A stretch of 64,000 nucleotides of DNA from Fibrella aestuarina BUZ 2. GTDB taxonomy: Bacteria; Bacteroidota; Bacteroidia; Cytophagales; Spirosomataceae. The notes beneath the pieces are model-generated. The model was not told the origin of the DNA and did no database searches. It saw only the letters and a list, made by a program, of their open reading frames with translations. The translations under genes were made by a program, and so were the position numbers. How positions within the stretch are numbered: position 1 is the first letter of the stretch; each line of letters opens with the position of its first letter. This document shows positions 2,703 through 12,509 of the stretch, one piece after another. The DNA lies in assembly GCF_000331105.1 (NCBI RefSeq), contig NC_020054.1, forward strand, positions 1,539,698-1,603,697, in the 5' to 3' direction.

Positions 2703-2773
2703 CGTGCAGCAGGTGGCGATAAAATGAATGGGCTTACTTTATCGTTTTAGTGGGTGTGTTAACCCACTTACCC

Positions 2774-3754
2774 ATGAAGATCACCGCGCCGCTGCTCGTT
2801 GTAGCCACGTTAGGCGTTGGCTCGGCACTGGCCCAATCGCAGACTGCCGAGGCTTTCGTTTGTAATTACTCGGGCAATGCTGCCCCTACTGTTCGCTGTA
2901 CCGACCGGGCCAGCGGGTCGAACCGTCACGCTGAAAAAGTGGTCGACCGGATTCTTCGGCCCATCGGGCTGATGCGCAATTTCAAGATTATGGAGTGCCC
3001 CGAGACACGTAACTGTTTTGCGGCGGTGATGAACGGGCAGCGGTTCATCCTGTATGATGGCGTGTTTATGCAACAGCTGGAAGATGAAACCGAAACCGAC
3101 TGGTCGGCAGTCAGCATCATGGCGCATGAAATTGGCCATCACCTGCAAGGACATACCCTGAATTCGGGGGGAAGCTCGCATCAGAAAGAGTTGGAAGCTG
3201 ATCGGTTTTCGGGCTTTGTGTTGCATCAGCTCGGCGCCACGTTGAGTGAGGCTACCGTAGCGATTCGTACGATTGGCAGCTATAGTGCGTCGACCTCGCA
3301 CCCCGGCCGCTCGTCTCGCCTAGAGGCAATCACCAAAGGCTGGACTGAGGCCGACGCGATTTATCCCCGCACGAAATCGGTAGCACCCAGTCGGCCAGCT
3401 TCGCCGGTGGTAGCTAGTGCCCCGAAACCAACCTCCGAAGCTGCACCAGCGCCGGCGGGAGTGACCCCTACGCTGGTTACCCAAACGTACCCAGGTGGTA
3501 AACTGAAATACAAAGGAGGCGTGCTGATGGGGCTACGTACAGGATACGGTGTCTACTACTATCCCAATGGCGACCGGTATGCAGGTCAGTTTGCTTATGA
3601 TCAGCCCCACGGAAAAGGCACCTACTACTTTTCGGACGGTGACCGCTTCGTAGGTACGTTCCGAAACGGGAAGCGGAGCGGTCCAGGTACGTTGTACGAT
3701 GCAGAAGGGGGCGTTGAAGAGGAAGGTACCTACGCCAATGACGTACTACGCTGA
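2774..3754 (+). CDS. Secreted M48-like metalloprotease fused to MORN repeats
   Basis: The ATG at 2774 gives a clear signal peptide ending in ALAQ at about residue 21; an upstream GTG at 2750 would add eight residues and spoil it. Residues 115-145 carry the zinc-protease signature HEIGHH (H118, E119, H122) followed by ELEAD (E139, D143), the ExxxD third-ligand pattern of M48 peptidases. Unlike FtsH- or HtpX-type M48 proteins there is no membrane segment, so the protein should be periplasmic or secreted. Four Cys in residues 30-81 could form disulfides. After a Pro/Ala-rich linker (about 205-240), three or so MORN repeats (G-x-G-x-Y-Y-x-x-G-D-x-Y-x-G) fill residues about 245-320. The substrate is unknown. 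Confidence 0.8.
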   Translation: MKITAPLLVVATLGVGSALAQSQTAEAFVCNYSGNAAPTVRCTDRASGSNRHAEKVVDRILRPIGLMRNFKIMECPETRNCFAAVMNGQRFILYDGVFMQQLEDETETDWSAVSIMAHEIGHHLQGHTLNSGGSSHQKELEADRFSGFVLHQLGATLSEATVAIRTIGSYSASTSHPGRSSRLEAITKGWTEADAIYPRTKSVAPSRPASPVVASAPKPTSEAAPAPAGVTPTLVTQTYPGGKLKYKGGVLMGLRTGYGVYYYPNGDRYAGQFAYDQPHGKGTYYFSDGDRFVGTFRNGKRSGPGTLYDAEGGVEEEGTYANDVLR

Positions 3755-3866: not shown

Positions 3867-4916
3867 TTACAGCAACAGGCTACGAAGCGGCAAGTCGCTG
3901 CCGTCGTATCTGGTCTGCATGGCACCGTAGAGGCCCAGTAAGCCGTCAAATAAGGAGTAATCGGGTGCTGTTGCTCCTTCCAAAGTCGGTAACAGCGTAT
4001 GCAGTTGTTGGCGCCAGAGTTGGGCTTCGAGTTCGATGGTTGGCTCGCCAGTGAGTTCGTATACCCGCTGATAGAGCCGCATCATGCCAGCCATACCATA
4101 TCGAATGCCCGGAGTGTCAATCTGCATTTGCCCGATCTTCCGACGGTGGATCGTATACGCCGCCACGCGGATGGCCCATTTGAGCAAATCGGGCTGGTTG
4201 AGCCAGCGGCCGCACTGAGCCAGCAACATGGCCTGCCCCAGATCACCTTCGGCCCAGCCCCCGTGTTCGGGCTCTTCCCAAAGGTTATCGGTTTTCGAAA
4301 TCAGGTTCGGGAATTGGACGAATTGCTCCAGGCTGGCATCAATCGGTAGCCGGCTTTGTTGCAACAGTCGTATATATTGGCGCAGTAACCGGTCAATTTC
4401 GGGCATGACCGGGTGCGAAAAATTGTCGAAGAGTTCGTTGTCATACACACTACCCACGCTAAGCAATTTGCCCGTCAGGCCTGTCGCCAATGACAGATCA
4501 ATGGTAGCCGCGTCCAAAGCCGTGCTGAGATACGCAAGCGCGCCTTCGATCAGCGGTTTTTCGTAGGTGTCGTATTGGAGGTGTCCCCGGGTACGTCGGC
4601 TGGCGAAATGGCCAATCAGCGGCGCAGTGCCATCGGCAACAGCCCATTGGTTATTCGCAATCGGGCCTTGTACCGTGCTGAACAGGTAGGCATCGAGCGC
4701 CTGTTGCTCGGGAGTAAAGCGGGATGTGCTGGTGATTTCTTCACCCAACAGCAGCAAAAGCCGGTTGGTTGGATCTTGCCCCAAATCATCGGTTATCGCC
4801 TGCTTGCGTACTTGATACCAAGCCGCATAACTTCCCTGCCATGCCTGCATCAGTGCTGCTTCAAGCAGAGGCATCGTAGAAATAGGATACTTGGGGGAAC
4901 CAACAGTTGGAACCAT
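3867..4916 (-). CDS. LanC-like cyclase homologue lacking the zinc ligands
   Basis: The 349-residue product has the alternating Gly-rich pattern of the LanC alpha/alpha barrel: LIEGALAYL (about 122-130), SLATGLTGKLLS (142-153), GGWAEGDLGQAML (219-231), TPGIRYGMAGMMRLY (268-282) and SLFDGLLGLYGAM (321-333). In LanC enzymes the zinc is held by a Cys in WCYG and by the Cys-His of CHG; here these positions read W221-A-E-G and R272-Y273-G, so all three ligands are absent. LanC enzymes normally add Cys thiols to dehydrated residues. This protein probably cannot do so and may serve as a scaffold, recognition or non-Cys-dependent factor. It lies 21 bases downstream of the last precursor gene and is likely co-transcribed with the array. 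Family assignment rests on pattern recognition, not a search. Confidence 0.75.
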   Translation of the reverse strand: MVPTVGSPKYPISTMPLLEAALMQAWQGSYAAWYQVRKQAITDDLGQDPTNRLLLLLGEEITSTSRFTPEQQALDAYLFSTVQGPIANNQWAVADGTAPLIGHFASRRTRGHLQYDTYEKPLIEGALAYLSTALDAATIDLSLATGLTGKLLSVGSVYDNELFDNFSHPVMPEIDRLLRQYIRLLQQSRLPIDASLEQFVQFPNLISKTDNLWEEPEHGGWAEGDLGQAMLLAQCGRWLNQPDLLKWAIRVAAYTIHRRKIGQMQIDTPGIRYGMAGMMRLYQRVYELTGEPTIELEAQLWRQQLHTLLPTLEGATAPDYSLFDGLLGLYGAMQTRYDGSDLPLRSLLL

Positions 4917-4937
4917 AAGTGCAAAACAACAAAAAGT

Positions 4938-5066
4938 TTAACCAATTACAGTAGCAATAGCAGGCCAAGTTGACGACCGACCACTGTTAATGCGTTGACA
5001 GACGTTGAGGCTAACCACTTGACGTTTGCTGAAAGATAAACGGGCAAAGGCGGTCAACGTTGTCAT
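4938..5066 (-). CDS. RiPP precursor peptide, copy 1 (42 aa, divergent)
   Basis: This is the copy nearest the LanC-like gene and the most divergent of six. The 42-residue peptide keeps the leader pattern (RLSFSKRQVVSLN, residues 9-21) and the core (GRSSTWPAIATVIG, 29-42). It differs from the others in a longer N-terminus, an S/V-altered leader, INSG for ANG, and a Cys at residue 23, the only Cys found in the whole family. The start ATG (complement of 5064-5066) begins MTT like copies 3-6. Bacteroidota lanthipeptide leaders often carry an L-x-L-x-K-x-x-I-A-x-L-N pattern, which this resembles. It was found by comparison with the other copies, as it is too short for ordinary gene calls. Confidence 0.75.
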   Translation of the reverse strand: MTTLTAFARLSFSKRQVVSLNVCQRINSGRSSTWPAIATVIG

Positions 5067-5196
5067 CCTATTCAGTTGTTTTAACTTTTATGGGTTACTT
5101 GGGGGAATGCCTTCGGTGTCACAGTAATCGTACCAAGTATTCTGGTAGATGAATAAACTGTTAACCAATCAATGGATAAAGCTTTTAAGCGGTAAC

Positions 5197-5319
5197 TTAA
5201 CCAATGACAGTGGCGACGGTAGGCCAGGTCGATGAGCGACCATTGGCGCGCTGACGGACGTTGAGGGTCGCTACCTGACGCTTGTTAAACTGAAGACGGG
5301 GTGCATTGATCGTTGCCAT
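5197..5319 (-). CDS. RiPP precursor peptide, copy 2 (40 aa)
   Basis: The 40-residue peptide begins MATINAP and continues with the shared leader RLQFNKRQVATLN (residues 8-20) and core ANGRSSTWPTVATVIG (25-40). The frame stays open upstream to an ATG at 5388, but the internal ATG at 5319 lines up with all other copies, so it was chosen. The core holds S29, S30, T31, T34 and T37 as possible dehydration sites and has no Cys. It is separated by 122-130 bases from its neighbours, more than copies 3-6. Confidence 0.82.
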   Translation of the reverse strand: MATINAPRLQFNKRQVATLNVRQRANGRSSTWPTVATVIG

Positions 5320-5441
5320 ATTGGTCAATTGATGGAAATTTATTATCGGGTTACTTAAGGCTGGTGAAATTTTTGTTGTCGCAGACAATTAGTTTTATAT
5401 CCGTAAGTTGGCTGCTGACGCGGATAAAGCCGATGGCTGAA

Positions 5442-5564
5442 CTAGCCGATAACGGTAGCGACGGTAGGCCAAGTCGATGAGCGGCCGTTGGCGCGCTGAC
5501 GGACGTTGAGGGTCGCTACTTGGCGTTTGTTGAACTGGAGACGGGGTGATGCAGACGTTGTCAT
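5442..5564 (-). CDS. RiPP precursor peptide, copy 3 (40 aa)
   Basis: The peptide begins MTTSASP and is otherwise the consensus: leader RLQFNKRQVATLN, then VRQR, then core ANGRSSTWPTVATVIG. It ends in TAG. Its protein sequence is identical to copy 5, with which it shares a 296-bp duplicated unit. Codon differences between copies are mostly silent, which supports translation of this frame rather than the longer frame on the same strand. Confidence 0.82.
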   Translation of the reverse strand: MTTSASPRLQFNKRQVATLNVRQRANGRSSTWPTVATVIG

Positions 5565-5739
5565 GAGGTGTACTAATGCTAGAGTGATGGACTGAATATG
5601 AATGAATTAACCGATAACCGTGGCGACAGTGGGCCAAGTCGATGAGCGGCCGTTGGCACGCTGACGAGTGTTGAGGGTAGCGACTTGACGCTTGTTAAAC
5701 TGAAGCCGGGGTGTGTTGATCGTTGTCATGATGATTGCT
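5444..5739. repeat. Tandem duplication unit A (precursor copies 3 and 4)
   Basis: This 296-bp block is repeated at 5775-6070, offset by 331 bases. I count four base differences between the two. It spans copies 3 and 4 with their spacer and nine or so bases before copy 4. All differences inside the genes are silent. Confidence 0.93.
5607..5729 (-). CDS. RiPP precursor peptide, copy 4 (40 aa)
   Basis: The peptide begins MTTINTP and has TRQR in place of VRQR after the leader; the core ANGRSSTWPTVATVIG is unchanged. It is identical in protein sequence to copy 6. The frame extends upstream into copy 5 in another phase, but the ATG at 5729 matches the other family starts. It lies 42 bases upstream of copy 3 in transcription order. 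Confidence 0.82.
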   Translation of the reverse strand: MTTINTPRLQFNKRQVATLNTRQRANGRSSTWPTVATVIG

Positions 5740-5772
5740 GTCTTTGGGGTGAACGTGTCAGTGTGTGGAAAA

Positions 5773-5895
5773 TTAGCCGATAACGGTAGCAACGGTAGGC
5801 CAGGTCGATGAGCGGCCATTGGCGCGCTGACGGACGTTGAGGGTCGCTACTTGGCGTTTGTTGAACTGGAGACGGGGTGATGCAGACGTTGTCAT
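5773..5895 (-). CDS. RiPP precursor peptide, copy 5 (40 aa)
   Basis: The protein is identical to copy 3 (MTTSASP start). At DNA level it differs from copy 3 within the shared block at three sites, all silent, and ends in TAA rather than TAG. It sits in the second half of the tandem duplication, 42 bases from copy 6 and 43 from copy 4. Confidence 0.82.
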   Translation of the reverse strand: MTTSASPRLQFNKRQVATLNVRQRANGRSSTWPTVATVIG

Positions 5896-6070
5896 GAGGT
5901 GTACTAATGCTAGAGTGATGGACTGAATATGAATGAATTAACCGATAACCGTGGCGACAGTGGGCCAAGTCGATGAGCGGCCGTTGGCACGCTGACGAGT
6001 GTTAAGGGTAGCGACTTGACGCTTGTTAAACTGAAGCCGGGGTGTGTTGATCGTTGTCATGATGATTGCT
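5775..6070. repeat. Tandem duplication unit B (precursor copies 5 and 6)
   Basis: This is the second copy of the 296-bp unit at 5444-5739. The spacer between the two genes is identical in both units. The match stops at 6070, so the duplication took two precursor genes as one piece and did not include the divergent promoter region beyond. Confidence 0.93.
5938..6060 (-). CDS. RiPP precursor peptide, copy 6 (40 aa), first in the array
   Basis: This is the promoter-proximal copy of the minus-strand array. The protein equals copy 4; one silent base (CTT for CTC in the leader LN) separates them. The region 6061-6183 between this start and the divergent kinase should hold the promoters for both units. 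A weak minus-strand match to the Bacteroidota -7 element (CAACTTTG, complement of 6100-6107) is present but I do not rely on it. Confidence 0.82.
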   Translation of the reverse strand: MTTINTPRLQFNKRQVATLNTRQRANGRSSTWPTVATVIG

Positions 6071-6183
6071 TGTTTATGGGTGTCGTTAAACTTGACAATG
6101 CAAAGTTGAGCGTGAAAATCAGAGCTGTGAAATCAATTATACCAGGGTCAGATTGGCCTATACGAATCCCGCACTTGCCCCGT

Positions 6184-7284
6184 ATGTTGGCTTGGTTCCA
6201 GCGTTACGGGCGGACGATTCTACTGCATTTATTAGCCTGGTTTCTGCATTTCACGGTTAATAATCTGCTGCTCTTTATCGGTGATTATCATCAAATCACC
6301 CCTCAGCGAACTCTATTTACTTATTCGTTAGCAGCCCTGCTTTTTTATGCAAATACTTATCTGGTCGTTCAGCCACAAGTAGCTCGTAAGCAGTATATCA
6401 GGCTTTTACTATACACCGTGGTCCTGTTGGCCGTATTTATCGGGCTACGGTATCTGTTGTTTTACTATTACTTCCCGGCGGTGGGGTACGTGAACGAATA
6501 CAGCAGTTTCAGTACCATGTTCTCCAAATTTTTGCCTGACTCAATCTGGATTGCGCTACAATATTTGCTGTTCAGTTACGGCTACTGGTTCGCGCTCGAT
6601 ACCATCCGTCTTGAACGGCAGAAACAGCGGATGCAGCACGACATGCTTCAACTCGAACAGGCCAAAGTTCAGTCAGAATTAGCCTTTCTTCGGGTACAGC
6701 TAAATCCACATTTTATATTCAATACGTTGAATTTTTTTTACTCCGAAGCGCTGAACACTTCCACGCGGCTAGCCGACGCTATTTTTGAATTGGCCACGAT
6801 GATGCGTACGGTAATGCAGTTAAGTAGCAAGTCGTTAGTAACGGTTGAGCACGAGTTGAATTACATACGGCATTACATCAACCTGCAACGACTACGCTTT
6901 GGCGATCAGATGAACCTTGAACTGACGGTCGAAGGTGATGAACTGGAGGCACACTTGTCGATTCTGCCGTTAATCCTGATTTCGCTTATTGAAAATATAT
7001 TTAAATACGGTGACCTCTCCGACGTGAACAACCCGGCCACCGTTCGCATTGTGCTGGACGACAACTCGTTATCGTATTATGGGAATAATGCTAAAAAAGA
7101 GTTTCCAACCTATTCGCAGGGAGGCGTTGGCATGAAGAACATCGAAAAGCAGTTAACAATTTTTTACGATGATATGTATGACCTTAAGGTGCAGGAAACG
7201 AAGAATTTCTACGCTGTTGAGATTCATATAAATTTTACAGAAGTAGATAAAAAAGTAGCCAAACACCAAGTCGTGCATGAGTGA
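6184..7284 (+). CDS. LytS-family sensor histidine kinase next to the RiPP array
   Basis: The product is an inner-membrane kinase with about four membrane segments in residues 10-130, a short coiled coil (LERQKQRMQHDMLQLEQ) and a His_kinase domain with H176 in LNPHFIFNTLN. The ATP-binding N-box reads LIENIFKYG (the common form is LVENAIKHG) and the G-box GGVGMKNIEKQL. The ATG at 6184 gives a typical length (366 aa) and leaves a 123-base divergent promoter region; ATGs at 6076 and an upstream frame overlapping precursor copy 6 are less likely. The LytTR regulator follows. It probably controls the precursor array or lanB, by position only. Confidence 0.88.
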   Translation: MLAWFQRYGRTILLHLLAWFLHFTVNNLLLFIGDYHQITPQRTLFTYSLAALLFYANTYLVVQPQVARKQYIRLLLYTVVLLAVFIGLRYLLFYYYFPAVGYVNEYSSFSTMFSKFLPDSIWIALQYLLFSYGYWFALDTIRLERQKQRMQHDMLQLEQAKVQSELAFLRVQLNPHFIFNTLNFFYSEALNTSTRLADAIFELATMMRTVMQLSSKSLVTVEHELNYIRHYINLQRLRFGDQMNLELTVEGDELEAHLSILPLILISLIENIFKYGDLSDVNNPATVRIVLDDNSLSYYGNNAKKEFPTYSQGGVGMKNIEKQLTIFYDDMYDLKVQETKNFYAVEIHINFTEVDKKVAKHQVVHE

Positions 7285-7392
7285 TATTATGCAAAAAGAG
7301 CGATAATTGTAGTCAATTCGCCAGCTCATCGTCTAAACGCCTCTATACGCATCACCTGCGTAGTCAATTTTCACGTTACCTACTCGTTGGTT

Positions 7393-8127
7393 ATGATCAA
7401 TTGCCTGATTCTGGATGACGAACACGCTGCAATCAACATCCTCAAGCGTTATGTGAACGATACCCCTTATCTTAAACTGGTTGGGGCAACGACCAACGTA
7501 TTTGAGGCGGCTGATATGCTGGAATGGGGCGGTATTGATCTGTTATTCCTTGATATTCAGATGCCGCGGCTGACAGGCCTGCAATTTCTGGATCTATATA
7601 GTGGTAATTACCGGGTAATTATGACTACTGCCTACAGTGAGTATGCACTGGAAGGATTTGAAAGAAACGTAGTTGATTATCTGCTTAAACCAATTCCATA
7701 CCAGCGGTTCCTGAAGGCCACTGAAAAGGTATTTAATCAGATTGCCCGCCCGGTCCCTGCTTCCGTAGCGGCGGAAAAAGACGAAGAGCCCGATTTCATT
7801 CTGGTCAAAACTGAACATAAGGGGAAATACCGTAAAATCGATTTAGCCGAAATCGTGTACGTTGAGGGTTTGAAAAATTACGTGTCGATTTATACGGACA
7901 AGAAAGAGCGTATAGTCACGTACATTGGCATTTCGGATCTGGAAGAGCGATTACCCGACCGGCTCTTTACCCGCGTTCACCGGTCCTATATCGTAGCTAC
8001 CCGCATGATCACGGCTATCGACGGGAACGAGATCCTGATGAAAGGAGCGCCGCGGATTCCCACGTCTGGCAAGTATAAGGAAGACTTGCTGCTGAAGTTT
8101 AGTAAACAGCTTATCCAGACTAAATAG
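7393..8127 (+). CDS. LytTR-family response regulator
   Basis: The 244-residue product has a receiver domain (acidic pocket D8-D9, phospho-acceptor D54 in FLDIQMP, T/K switch positions in TTAYSEYA and LLKPI) and a C-terminal LytTR DNA-binding domain (KYRKIDLAEIVYVEGLKNYVSI, RVHRSYIV). The ATG at 7393 is preferred to a TTG two codons earlier. It lies 108 bases after the kinase and 69 before the dehydratase gene, in the same direction, so kinase, regulator and dehydratase probably form one unit. Confidence 0.92.
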   Translation: MINCLILDDEHAAINILKRYVNDTPYLKLVGATTNVFEAADMLEWGGIDLLFLDIQMPRLTGLQFLDLYSGNYRVIMTTAYSEYALEGFERNVVDYLLKPIPYQRFLKATEKVFNQIARPVPASVAAEKDEEPDFILVKTEHKGKYRKIDLAEIVYVEGLKNYVSIYTDKKERIVTYIGISDLEERLPDRLFTRVHRSYIVATRMITAIDGNEILMKGAPRIPTSGKYKEDLLLKFSKQLIQTK

Positions 8128-8196
8128 CCCTTGCCGATCAGGGGTTTACCCGATTGATGGCTGCCGCTTCTGGCAATACGTCAGCCGATTGTTTCC

Positions 8197-11100
8197 ATGC
8201 AACTGCATCCGTTCTATGTGCTGCGTCGGCCACTGTTGCCTGTTGAGACCTATTTTCAGGTCCAACACCGACTACGGCAAGGACACGCACTGATTGATGT
8301 GCTGAAAGCCTATTATCAACACCCATACGCTCAACAAGCCCTTTTTTTTGCGTCCAGTGATGTGTACCAACAATGCCAGCAATGGTTAGCAGGTACGTTA
8401 TCGCCGTCGGATAAGGTGCAAAAGACCCTGTACCGCTACCTGATTCGGATGTCGACCCGCGCCACGCCCTTTGGCTTGTGTTCAGGGATTTCGCTGGGAA
8501 AATGGGGGACCGTATCGGGCGTTACGTTTGATGAAGCTGCACCAGTACGAACGTACCTGCGACTCGATGCAATGGCTATGCAGCAACTGTTGCACTACGT
8601 CAGTCAACTACCCGCTATCTGGCCGACGGTGCGCTACCGATCCAACACCACGACCTATGCCATTGGCGCCGATCTGCGCTACGTAGAGGCCAATCAGCAG
8701 GGGGGATTGCCCGGAAGTTACGCGTTGAGTGTCACCGACAATACGGAGTATCTGCAACAAATTCTGGAAAGAGCCCGCCACGGCGCTACGCTTCCTGACC
8801 TGATTACCCTGTTGATGCAAGACGGGATCGAGGCGGAAGACGCCCAAGGTTTTCTTGACAATCTGATTGATAATCAGCTAATCCAGTCTGAATTCGATCC
8901 GAGTCTGACGGCCCAGGATGAATTGGGACGCCTATTAGAGCGACTACGTCCATTTGCTGAGCAGCAGCCCGCCATCGACTTACTGACTGATGTCCACGAG
9001 ACGCTACGCCGCGCCAGCCCAGCCAGCAACGTACCTGACTGCCAGCGGTTAGATGAATTGCTGGCCCCCATTCTCGCTATCGAAAACCGGCTGCTGGTGC
9101 AGTGCGACACGTACTTCCCCGCCAGTCAGAACACGATTGGGGAAGCCGTGCGTGAGCAGTTGAGCCAGACACTACAGCAGATTCTGCGCCTTAGCCCAGC
9201 CGAGCAAACGTACCTGCCCACCTTCCGGGAGCGTTTCTACGAACGCTACGAAGAGCAGGAAGTGCCGCTGCTATTGGCACTTGACCCGGATATCGGCGTT
9301 GGTTACGGGGGGAGTTCGCTCACAGCCGCCTTGTTGGACGGTATCGACTGGCCCGAAATGGCCGCGGGTGACGTTCCGTTCACGGTGGCGCAACAGACGA
9401 TGCTCCGGCTTTTTACCGAAGCAATGCGCCTTGACGAACCCCGGCTGGACCTGTTGGATGCTGATCTGGCCACCCTGACCGACGGGCAACCTGAGCCTGC
9501 TTTACCGGCCAGTGGTTACTGGATGGGCCACTTGCTGGCCAGCTCAGCCGAGGCGCTCGACGCGGGCGACTGGCAGTTTCATCTGGTAGCGGGCGGGGGG
9601 CCGTCGGCGGCCAACCTGCTGGGCCGTATGGCTCACCTGGACGATGAACTGAAAGCCCAACTGCAAGCAAGCCTGCAACAGGAAGAGGCCTCGGAAGCCG
9701 ACGCCATTTGGGCCGAAATCGTCCATCTGCCCGAAGCCAAACTCGCCAACGTGCTGACCCGCCCGGCGCTGCGTTCTTACGAAATTCCGATTCTATCCGT
9801 TAGTGGCGTACCTGACGCCTATCAAATCCCGCTCGATGATCTGCTGATTTCGGCCCCGCGTGGACAACGTATTGTGCTGCGATCGAGGCGGCTGAATAAG
9901 CGGGTTATCCCCCGGCTATCGACGGCGCACAATTTCTCGATGGGGCTGGCCCACTACCGGTTTCTCTGTGATCTGCAAAAGCAGGAGGGCACCCTGCGCG
10001 TTGGCTGGGATTGGGGACCCTTGTCCTCACAGCCGTATTTGCCGCAGGTTCGTTACCGCAACGTCATCCTGAGCCGAGCGGCCTGGCAACTGACGAAAGG
10101 CGTGGCGCCAACCAGCCAAGCCGATTGGCTGGCTAGTTGGCGGAGTCGTTACCACGTGCCCCGGTATGTCGTTATGATGAATGCCGACAACGAACTACCG
10201 CTTGACCTGGAAAACGGCCTGAATGTTGAGTTGTTGGTTGACGAGTTGACTAAGCACGGCACCGTCAAACTGAAAGAGTGGCTGTTGAACGAACAGACGT
10301 GCTGGGTGGGTGGCCCAACGCAGCATTGGGTCGGTGAATTGATTCTTCCCGCCAGTTTCACCTCCAAGCGATCCGCGACAAACACGTACGCCCGAGCAAC
10401 CAGCGACGTGCAACGCATTTTTGCGCCGGGTAGCGAGTGGGTTTATCTGAAGATTGTAACGGGCGAACAGGCGAGTGAGCGGTTGCTCCTCACCGAACTA
10501 CCCATCCTGACTGAAGACCTGCGCGAAGCCGGCAGCCTGAGCCAATGGTTTTACGTTCGGTACAATCATCCCGAACCGCAGCTACGGGTACGTTTTCAGA
10601 GCTTTCCCGGTCAGGATGGGCAATTGCTGGGTCAGGTGCTGGCCTGGGTGCAACGCCTGACGGCCGACTACGGCACGCTGTATCGGGTGCAACTTGATAC
10701 GTATCAGCGGGAAGTGGAGCGGTATGGAGCCGCCCGCATAGCGCTTTGCGAAGCCTGGTTCTGCACAGAAAGCGAGATGCTGCTGCCCGTGTTGCAGCTC
10801 GTCAGTCAGGAAGGCGAAACGAGTCGGCTCTTCTATGCCTGCGCACTGGTCGATCGCCTCTTCGAAGCCTGGCAACTGCCCCTCGACCAGCGAGATGGCC
10901 TCATCACCCGACTGCGGGATGCATTCAGCCGGGAGTTTCGGGCCGATACGGCGCTGCTCGTGCAACTGGACAAGAGTTATCGGCTATACCGCCCGGTCGT
11001 CCATGACGCGCTGTCGGCGTTCGACGCCCCGGCTGAACTCGCGTCATTTGCCCCTCAGTTCCGGCAGCTGGCTAGTGAGTTACAGACTACCCTCGCCGAT

Positions 11101-11262
11101 CAGAACGAGCGTGACGACTTGCTAGCCTCGCTGATTCACATGCTCCTGAACCGCATATTCCCGACCGAGAACCGTCGACACGAGTACCTACTGTATCACC
11201 TGCTGAAGAAAGAATACACGTCGTTACTGAAGCGGAACCGCCCAGCGCCAAACCGAGCTTAG
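8197..11262 (+). CDS. Full-length LanB-type lantibiotic dehydratase
   Basis: Enzymes of this family use glutamyl-tRNA to activate Ser/Thr of a precursor peptide and then eliminate glutamate to give dehydroalanine or dehydrobutyrine. The 1021-residue product has the N-terminal glutamylation region with [14 protein letters not shown] (residues 81-94), a block found in LanB proteins, and the C-terminal SpaB_C/thiopeptide-type elimination domain from about 743 ([26 protein letters not shown]) to the end, with the conserved HMLLNR near residue 985. Both halves are present, so it is not a short ligase-type LanB. The stop overlaps that of the convergent rocD. Its likely substrates are the six precursors 2 kb upstream. 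Confidence 0.93.
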
Positions 11263-12509
11263 AAAGCCCGGATGGTTTGCTCGATAATGTCGCAGGCCTC
11301 GTTCATCTGGGCTTCGGTAATCACGAGCGGTGGGGCAAAACGGATCTTGTCACCATGGGTGGGTTTGCAAAGCAGCCCGTTGTCGCGGAAGCGGAGGCAA
11401 AGCTCCCAGGCCGTTTCTTCCCCAAACTCGGGGCGCTCACTGATGACAATGGCGTTGAGCAACCCTTTGCCACGTACCTGACGGATCAGATCGGTTTCGG
11501 CCGCCAGCGCGTTTAGTCGGCTGCGGAAGAGTTGGCCCATCGCCTCGGCATTCTCCGCCAATCGCTCGTCGCGCACCACGTCGAGCGCCGCTACGGCTAC
11601 CGCACAGCCCAGCGGGTTGCCGCCAAAGGTGCTGCCGTGTTCACCAGGCCGGATCGTCAGCATGATTTCGTCAGACGCCAGCACGGCCGATACGGGCATA
11701 ACCCCACCCGACAGTGCTTTCCCCAGTACCAGAATATCGGGTTTCACGTCTTCGTGGTCGCAGGCAAGGCGGCGTCCCGTACGGCCGATGCCCGTTTGCA
11801 CCTCGTCGGCAATGAAAAGGACATTGTATTGGGTGCAAAGGGCCCGTACCCCGCGCAGGTAACCATCGGAGGGTACCAATACGCCCGCTTCGCCCTGAAT
11901 GGGCTCGACCATGAAACCGGCAATGTTCGGGTCGGCAGCAAACGTAGCTTCCAGCGCAGCGAGGTCATCATAAGGCACCAAGACGTACCCAGGCAACAGG
12001 GGGCCGTAGTCGTTGGTGCTGCTGGGATCGGTCGACGACGAAATGGCGGCGAGCGTACGTCCCCAGAAATTGCCGGTTGCGTAAACCGTTTTGGCCTGGT
12101 CCTGCGCGATACCTTTCACTTTGTAGGCCCATTTTCGCGTCAGTTTCAGGGCCGTTTCGCCAGCTTCCACGCCTGAGTTCATCATTAGCACCTTATCAAA
12201 GCCAAAATACTCGCAGAGGTATTTCTCGGCCTTGCCCAACTGATCGTTATGAAACGCCCGCGACGTGAGCGTCAGCCGCCCGGCCTGTTCAATCAGGGCC
12301 TTGATAATACGTGGATGGCAATGGCCCTGACTAACAGCACTGTAGGCCGACAGGAAATCGTAATAACGCCGCCCGTCCACATCCCACACAAACACTCCCT
12401 CGCCCCGCGTCAAGACAACGGGTAGCGGATGGTAGTTGTGAGCGCCATACTGGTCTTCAAGTTGAATGGCCTGTTCGGCGAGTGAGGTTATCAGCGTGGT
12501 GGTGGTCAT
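11259..12509 (-). CDS. rocD: Ornithine aminotransferase
   Basis: This class III PLP aminotransferase converts ornithine and 2-oxoglutarate to glutamate-5-semialdehyde and glutamate. The 416-residue product has the N-terminal [13 protein letters not shown] typical of ornithine aminotransferases, the cofactor-binding [12 protein letters not shown] and the PLP lysine in [14 protein letters not shown]. The [15 protein letters not shown] block is also intact. The stop codon overlaps the dehydratase stop by three bases, with no terminator between them. It has no functional link to the RiPP genes. Confidence 0.95.

Follow-up and report, generated by a model that had tools for sequence, protein, structure and literature searches.

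What does a locus make when it carries the enzymes of a class I lanthipeptide pathway but precursor peptides with almost no cysteine? The question is raised by positions 3867..11262 of a 64,000-nucleotide stretch of the Fibrella aestuarina BUZ 2 genome (NC_020054.1, positions 1,539,698 to 1,603,697); this whole stretch is called the window below. The locus comprises six precursor genes, a LanC-like gene, a LytS-type histidine kinase, a LytTR response regulator and a LanB dehydratase. An initial annotation had described it as a compact locus for a ribosomally synthesized and post-translationally modified peptide (RiPP), with regulators beside the precursor array, and this description holds: every gene that it named was found in place. 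Reading it as an ordinary class I lanthipeptide locus fails, because five of the six precursors are Cys-free and the LanC-like protein, which we call LanC0, has lost the Cys-Cys-His zinc triad and the catalytic His. Judging from sequence, we think it probable that the product is a linear dehydropeptide made by LanB, with LanC0 as a non-catalytic partner and LytS-LytTR in control, and the locus is likely to represent a conserved new variant of LanB-based RiPPs.

The six precursor genes lie in tandem on the minus strand and are followed by lanC0 (6060 down to 3867). Copies 2 to 6 (5197..5319, 5442..5564, 5607..5729, 5773..5895 and 5938..6060) are Cys-free and encode approximately one peptide, RLQFNKRQVATLN[VT]RQRANGRSSTWPTVATVIG; copy 5 is identical in peptide to copy 3, and copy 6 to copy 4. 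Copy 1 (4938..5066) is divergent and has one Cys where the other copies have Arg. Thus, the Cys-containing core that marks class I lanthipeptides is absent from five copies, and the sixth has a single Cys. The cores of copies 2 to 6 contain five or six Ser/Thr residues and no Cys, Lys or His, with up to six Ser/Thr sites in the Thr-rich, hydrophobic C-terminal half, NTRQRANGRSSTWPTVATVIG. A Lys- or His-based macrocycle was considered for these copies and dropped because their core has neither residue. Across 20 peptides from this and related loci (a set that includes locus L089 and omits L060), Ser/Thr made up 31% of the core (169/544 residues, with the leader/core boundary set by a rough pattern), compared with 11% in the window's four cassette proteins.

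When the genome was searched with the precursor, the six copies matched at E 1.5e-21 to 1.4e-10 and no seventh came up, the next matches having E values of 0.83 and 0.88. A protein-database search with the 40-residue precursor gave no candidate sharing three words. Between copies 2 and 3 there are 13 synonymous changes and no non-synonymous one, and between copies 5 and 6 there are 17 synonymous and 3 non-synonymous changes; across the ten pairs among copies 2 to 6 the counts run from 1 to 17 and from 0 to 3, respectively (copy 1, which differs in length, was left out). The precursors look like real genes, with copies 2 to 6 apparently under purifying selection. Copies 3-4 and 5-6 are a two-gene unit repeated at a 331-base step; the array is recently expanded.

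The leader had been likened to those of Bacteroidota class I lanthipeptides, and an approximate LxLxKx5L-like pattern can be seen: LQFNKRQVATL fits it except for an F in place of the second L. When copies 1, 3 and 6 were scanned with the NF038153 leader model, copy 6 scored 15.4 and copy 3 scored 14.8 bits, both under the 22-bit cut-off, and copy 1 had no match. The window precursors have no Gly-Gly (GG). GG follows the leader motif in the precursors of some relatives (L048, L055, L061 and L088), and a GG cleavage site is therefore possible there.

The dehydratase looks active by its sequence. LanB (8197..11262, plus strand, 1021 residues) matches PF04738 over all positions (1-649/649, E 9e-177) and PF14028 over 1-253/255 (E 1e-58), so both the glutamylation and elimination domains of a class I LanB are complete, and the family assignment made earlier is borne out. 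Small LanB-like peptide-aminoacyl-tRNA ligases (PEARLs) are not known to have an elimination domain; membership of that group was ruled out by the PF14028 domain with its conserved Arg/His residues. NisB residues Y80, R83, R87 and T89 (4wd9) align with window LanB Y81, R84, R88 and T90, and NisB R784, R786 and R826 align with R797, R799 and R842 (the roles of R786 and R826 in NisB are assumed here). All seven residues and a C-terminal HxxxNR motif (H981) are the same in the window LanB and in those of five relatives. This motif is presumably the counterpart of NisB H961, an equivalence drawn by motif only because the NisB alignment stops before it. In NisB, Y80F and H961A abolish dehydration, mutants of R83 and R87 are impaired, and the effects of T89A and R784A are mild (PMC4341554).

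LanC0 (3867..4916, minus strand, 349 residues) is related to LanC proteins by fold but has lost their active site. It belongs to the LanC fold family by its PF05147 match (E 4e-9) and its alpha/alpha-toroid fold, and PF05147 is its sole domain, so that it stands alone rather than in the fused architecture of class III LanKC. A phmmer search of PDB sequences gave no match at E values up to 1, and kinship to PDB structures is visible only by fold comparison. NisC His212, Cys284, Cys330 and His331 are replaced by Thr144, Ala221, Arg271 and Tyr272 (numbered in the 348-residue query without Met1). The LanC-like gene of the initial annotation is thus present; the absence of its zinc site had gone unnoticed, as had the absence of Cys from five of the six precursors.

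This gene set is conserved. The initial annotation knew of no described locus with exactly these features, but the set is not unique: the LanC0 module is found in 21 Cytophagales loci, from Fibrella, Spirosoma and other genera. When 390 genomes of this order were searched with the window LanC, 46 matches turned up in 36 genomes, and surroundings were fetched for 45 of these. Nineteen loci, the window included, had a LanC lacking the zinc site, and L088 and L091, added from a LanB search, brought the number to 21; L052 and L060 are near-copies. All-against-all comparison of 18 of these loci, counting families of open reading frames (ORFs) of at least 130 residues, found LytS in 18/18, LytTR in 18/18 and LanB in 17/18 (L055 shows none within its 20 kb). 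No other family occurred in more than four of the 18, and two members scanned from a four-member family were outer-membrane beta-barrel proteins. Outside this comparison, L059 and L060 have the full gene set, and L066, at a contig end, shows LanC and LytTR but no LytS, LanB or precursor. The module therefore has no exporter or protease in common, ABC-exporter-like ORFs being flagged in just two LanC0 stretches (L064 and L065); as far as these comparisons reach, it is minimal: LytS, LytTR, LanB, LanC0 and precursor. A locus of the same kind occurs in Fibrella aquatilis (NZ_JAFMYU010000016.1), of the same genus. Among relatives of known neighbourhood, the closest is Spirosoma sordidisoli TY50 (L088 = L108), whose LytTR, LanB and LanC0 are 79, 59 and 43% identical to those of the window, whose LytS is 64% identical in the sensor half and 55% in the kinase half, and whose precursor is Cys-free and ends QASWPTGGTIIG. 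LytTR is the best conserved component (59-79% identity in six relatives, vs 35-59% for LanB), and LanC0 the least conserved protein (22-43% in five relatives).

All four residues (His, Cys, Cys and His) are lost from LanC0 in 20 of the 21 loci; L064 keeps one Cys. LanC0 of 19 loci forms one clade (branch support 100/97), from which a twentieth row labelled LanC0-like, L079, was left out because it sits in another, independently degenerate clade. No single residue replaces the catalytic His or the zinc ligands across the clade, and the ORFs have at least 329 residues in all 21 loci. A protein-database search with the LanC0 sequence returned three proteins (the window's own, P0002 and P0003), and a profile search added P0004, from Cytophagaceae bacterium DM2B3-1; P0002 (83% identical) and P0003 (44%), outside the 21-locus count, also lack the four residues. 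A LanC0 pattern search of genome contigs gave 21 matches, none of them a relative. Among 395 genomes of the phylum, a profile search matched 14, of which just three carry LanC0: the window's own, G033 and G034. Sixteen other matched loci were inspected, three of them additional loci in G034; the zinc motif is present in 10, and L200 is counted neither with these nor with the five that follow. In L191, L196, L199, L202 and L203, outside the order, zinc ligands are wholly or partly missing and the His is kept; thus, partly degenerate LanCs occur elsewhere. Other degenerate LanCs were seen in L050, L068, L073, L079, L085 and L086, five of the six beside a zinc-bearing LanC.

The state of the zinc site goes with the cysteine content of the precursor. 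In the 20 LanC0 loci with a precursor (L066 has none), core Cys number 0 in 16 and 1 in four (L053, L059, L063 and L064), the window being counted as Cys-free despite the one Cys in one of its six copies. With a pattern and inspection by eye, precursors could be recognised in 15 of 21 zinc-LanC loci (none in L056, L057, L074, L075, L076 and L084); 14 of the 15 have Cys, and 13 have at least two. By eye, 12 of the 14 zinc loci with Cys-bearing precursors have a GG-type leader end. One zinc-LanC locus runs counter to this pattern: L067 encodes a Cys-free, LanC0-type peptide (L067:15519-15653), 1.4 kb from LanB and between ORFs resembling transposase remnants, and has a Cys-bearing precursor candidate further off. 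The association has a Fisher p of 2e-6 without L067 and 2e-5 with it, values that overstate independence because it rests mainly on one clade. L077 (9244-10680) and L078 (8829-10262) combine a zinc LanC with LytS-LytTR on the same stretch; their short precursors have two Cys and one Cys, respectively, and the two loci may be intermediates.

LanBs close to that of the window also occur apart from LanC. We examined 20 further LanB loci, taken from the top of the match list and not at random. LytTR lies in the stretch in 18 of them (not L092 or L103), and 16 have no LanC in the 9-19.5 kb fetched. These 16 and L014 have precursors with 0 Cys (eight loci) or 1 Cys (nine) after the leader motif; Cys also falls inside the motif in L014, L096, L097, L100 and L102. 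For instance, in S. fluviale L089 a peptide like the window's, LSWPTTATMFGK, occurs with LytS, LytTR and LanB but with no LanC in 19.5 kb. On this comparison, LanC can be dispensable in such loci. Thirteen of 16 LanC-less loci (counting L014 and leaving out L092) have an extra small gene with receiver-like similarity to LytTR. Six of its products were aligned; they are receiver-sized, 18-26% identical to the window receiver and without the phospho-acceptor Asp, and Pfam finds no receiver domain in seven scanned. This Asp-less protein is possibly a pseudo-receiver. It adjoins the precursor in L093 (7799-8164), L095, L097, L100, L104 and L107.

The window's genome has three more full LanBs (L014, L015 and L016), each beside a LytTR gene. 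The genome has 30 LytTR genes, and each of its four LanBs has one within 3 kb; the only LanC found there is the window's own. The L014 precursor ends GGRTHPTVTITTY, and a possible L016 precursor ends YPTTIDLTIIFTL. Near the LanC-less LanB of L014, positions 4076-5296 give a weak peptidase M50 match, under cut-off, a candidate processing protease. LanB also lies beside LytTR-LytS in nine Sphingobacterium loci (L112, L115, L121, L124, L128, L133, L136, L183 and L184) and in Dyadobacter koreensis L117, with no LanC in the fetched stretches of these ten. No convincing precursor was found by pattern in nine of the ten (L124 was outside the scan); the nine scanned comprise six Sphingobacterium LanB-LytTR-LytS loci, two with a broken LanB, and L117, and L119 likewise has none.

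On the plus strand, diverging from the array, lie LytS (6184..7284; PF06580, E 2e-21), LytTR (7393..8127; PF00072 and PF04397, E 1e-17) and LanB, in that order, the first two with predicted starts. Taken from its listed TTG at 6016, the LytS ORF overlaps precursor copy 6 on the opposite strand; its start is likely to be the ATG at 6184. LytS has an NPHFIFN motif and three hydrophobic segments in its N-terminal half. By position, 6061..6183 would hold the promoters of the precursor-lanC0 operon and lytS. In the divergent regions of 20 loci, LytTR-type direct repeats, sought with an assumed consensus, did not exceed shuffles (lowest p 0.16). Promoter and terminator scans gave counts near chance (8 vs 5.6 and 3 vs 4.6). 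Pheromone receptors tend to have a hypervariable sensor part. In LytS the sensor half (40-64% identity) varies no more than the kinase half (42-55%), which argues against a fast-evolving peptide receptor, and we think a conserved cue more likely than pheromone sensing to control the cassette.

Next to the locus are an M48-peptidase/MORN-repeat protein (2750-3754) and a class III aminotransferase (11259-12509), its stop and the LanB stop overlapping by four bases; neither belongs to the families common to at least three loci compared. The pathway had been called self-contained, and this is doubtful because the relatives share no exporter or leader protease in the fetched stretches.

Based on these results, we propose a model. 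LanB would use glutamyl-tRNA to dehydrate Ser/Thr in the C-terminal half of the precursor. The product would be a linear, non-lanthionine dehydropeptide because the core of copies 2 to 6 offers no Cys, Lys or His to attack dehydroalanine or dehydrobutyrine. As a metal-free partner without catalytic activity, LanC0 would most likely hold the dehydrated peptide or pass it on; expression would be under the control of LytS-LytTR, encoded divergently from the array, and the peptide would be released. Several points weigh against this model: the single Cys kept in 4 of 20 LanC0 loci and in one window copy, the Lys or His in some relatives' cores (e.g. L048, L049, L055 and L080), L067, the dependence of the zinc/Cys association on one clade, and the motif-only assignment of H961. 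In addition, cyclisation by class III LanKC enzymes needs no zinc (PMC10604976); a missing zinc is therefore no proof of missing cyclase activity. LanC0 could then still be a metal-free cyclase that uses the single Cys or another nucleophile, as the ring-forming LanC domain of ThurKC has Ser726/Phe770/Asp771 (PMC10604976) and the stray Cys, Lys and His residues would allow. We think this improbable: the catalytic His is gone with no common replacement, the core of copies 2 to 6 has no Cys, Lys or His, and L089 pairs LanB with a Cys-free precursor and no LanC in 19.5 kb.

Another reading makes the locus a signalling unit, in which the modified peptide or LanC0 acts on LytS-LytTR, as might be compared with the zinc-less LanC-domain protein CA_C0082, downstream of Agr in Clostridium (PMC10301443). 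This LanB type is constantly accompanied by LytS-LytTR, LytTR lying near 18 of 20 LanB loci and being the best conserved part, but the sensor half is not hypervariable, the loci share no exporter and no LytTR site was found; this reading is unlikely, if a little less so than a cyclase. That the locus is a decaying lantibiotic locus, with Cys and cyclase function lost, would fit the missing catalytic residues and the low conservation of LanC0, yet it is very hard to reconcile with full-length LanC0 ORFs in all 21 loci, the excess of synonymous changes among precursors, the conserved LanB residues and the recently expanded array. Beyond the linear dehydropeptide that we prefer, we tentatively raise a wider idea, which may be correct but to which we would not commit ourselves: these loci might form a separate, undescribed branch of Bacteroidota LanB RiPPs, cysteine-poor, exporter-free and wired to LytS-LytTR, in which most units have a pseudo-domain partner (the zinc-less pseudo-LanC of 21 loci or the receiver-like protein, without its Asp, of 13/16 LanC-less loci) that links the dehydrated peptide with the two-component system.

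By their enzymes these loci resemble class I lanthipeptide loci, yet lanthionine is out of reach for most of their precursors. Nature thus provides a collection of loci in which LanB is separated from thioether chemistry and an entire LanC clade, without zinc site and general acid, still accompanies LanB; here a non-catalytic role of LanC can be put to a direct test. The loci also point to Spirosoma-like bacteria as a source of linear dehydropeptides that has been little explored.

How does the locus compare with known systems? In the open literature (subscription papers lying mostly outside our scope), we recognised no description of Cys-free LanB loci with LytTR. The expected product type is that of linaridins of the cypemycin type, linear peptides rich in dehydrobutyrine made with different dehydration genes and no known LanB. 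Class III LanKC enzymes such as ThurKC share a LanC-fold domain without zinc ligands; unlike the window, they dehydrate with fused lyase and kinase domains, and their substrates contain Cys. The same enzyme combination appears on paper as 'B-Unk' synthetases, LanB with a cyclase of undefined triad, listed as a count of 14 peptides (PMC11251773 Table 1, 2024); the main text of that source does not contain the stem 'bacteroid', and we saw no mention there of Cys-free LanB peptides or LytTR. CA_C0082, as described in PMC10301443, likewise places a zinc-less LanC-type domain next to the Agr two-component system; it is LanM-like, with a degenerate dehydratase domain in a genome without other lanthipeptide genes, and is not needed to make the Agr signal peptide. 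In Spirosoma linguale, four LanBs and five LanCs were reported in 2010, just one of each in an apparent lantibiotic cluster (PMC3091789). Closest are the Bacteroidota class I lanthipeptides, whose products have been made from Chryseobacterium and Runella with LanB and LanC, those LanBs requiring a Bacteroidota tRNA-Glu/GluRS pair to dehydrate fully (PMC9993889), and for which LxLxKx5L leaders and GG/C39 processing are described (PMC7268733). The window shares with them a full LanB of the same family and the LanC fold, and its leader resembles theirs; it differs in its Cys-free core in five of six copies, in precursors with no GG, in a module with no C39 exporter, in a LanC without zinc or catalytic His, and in the LytS-LytTR pair that adjoins it.

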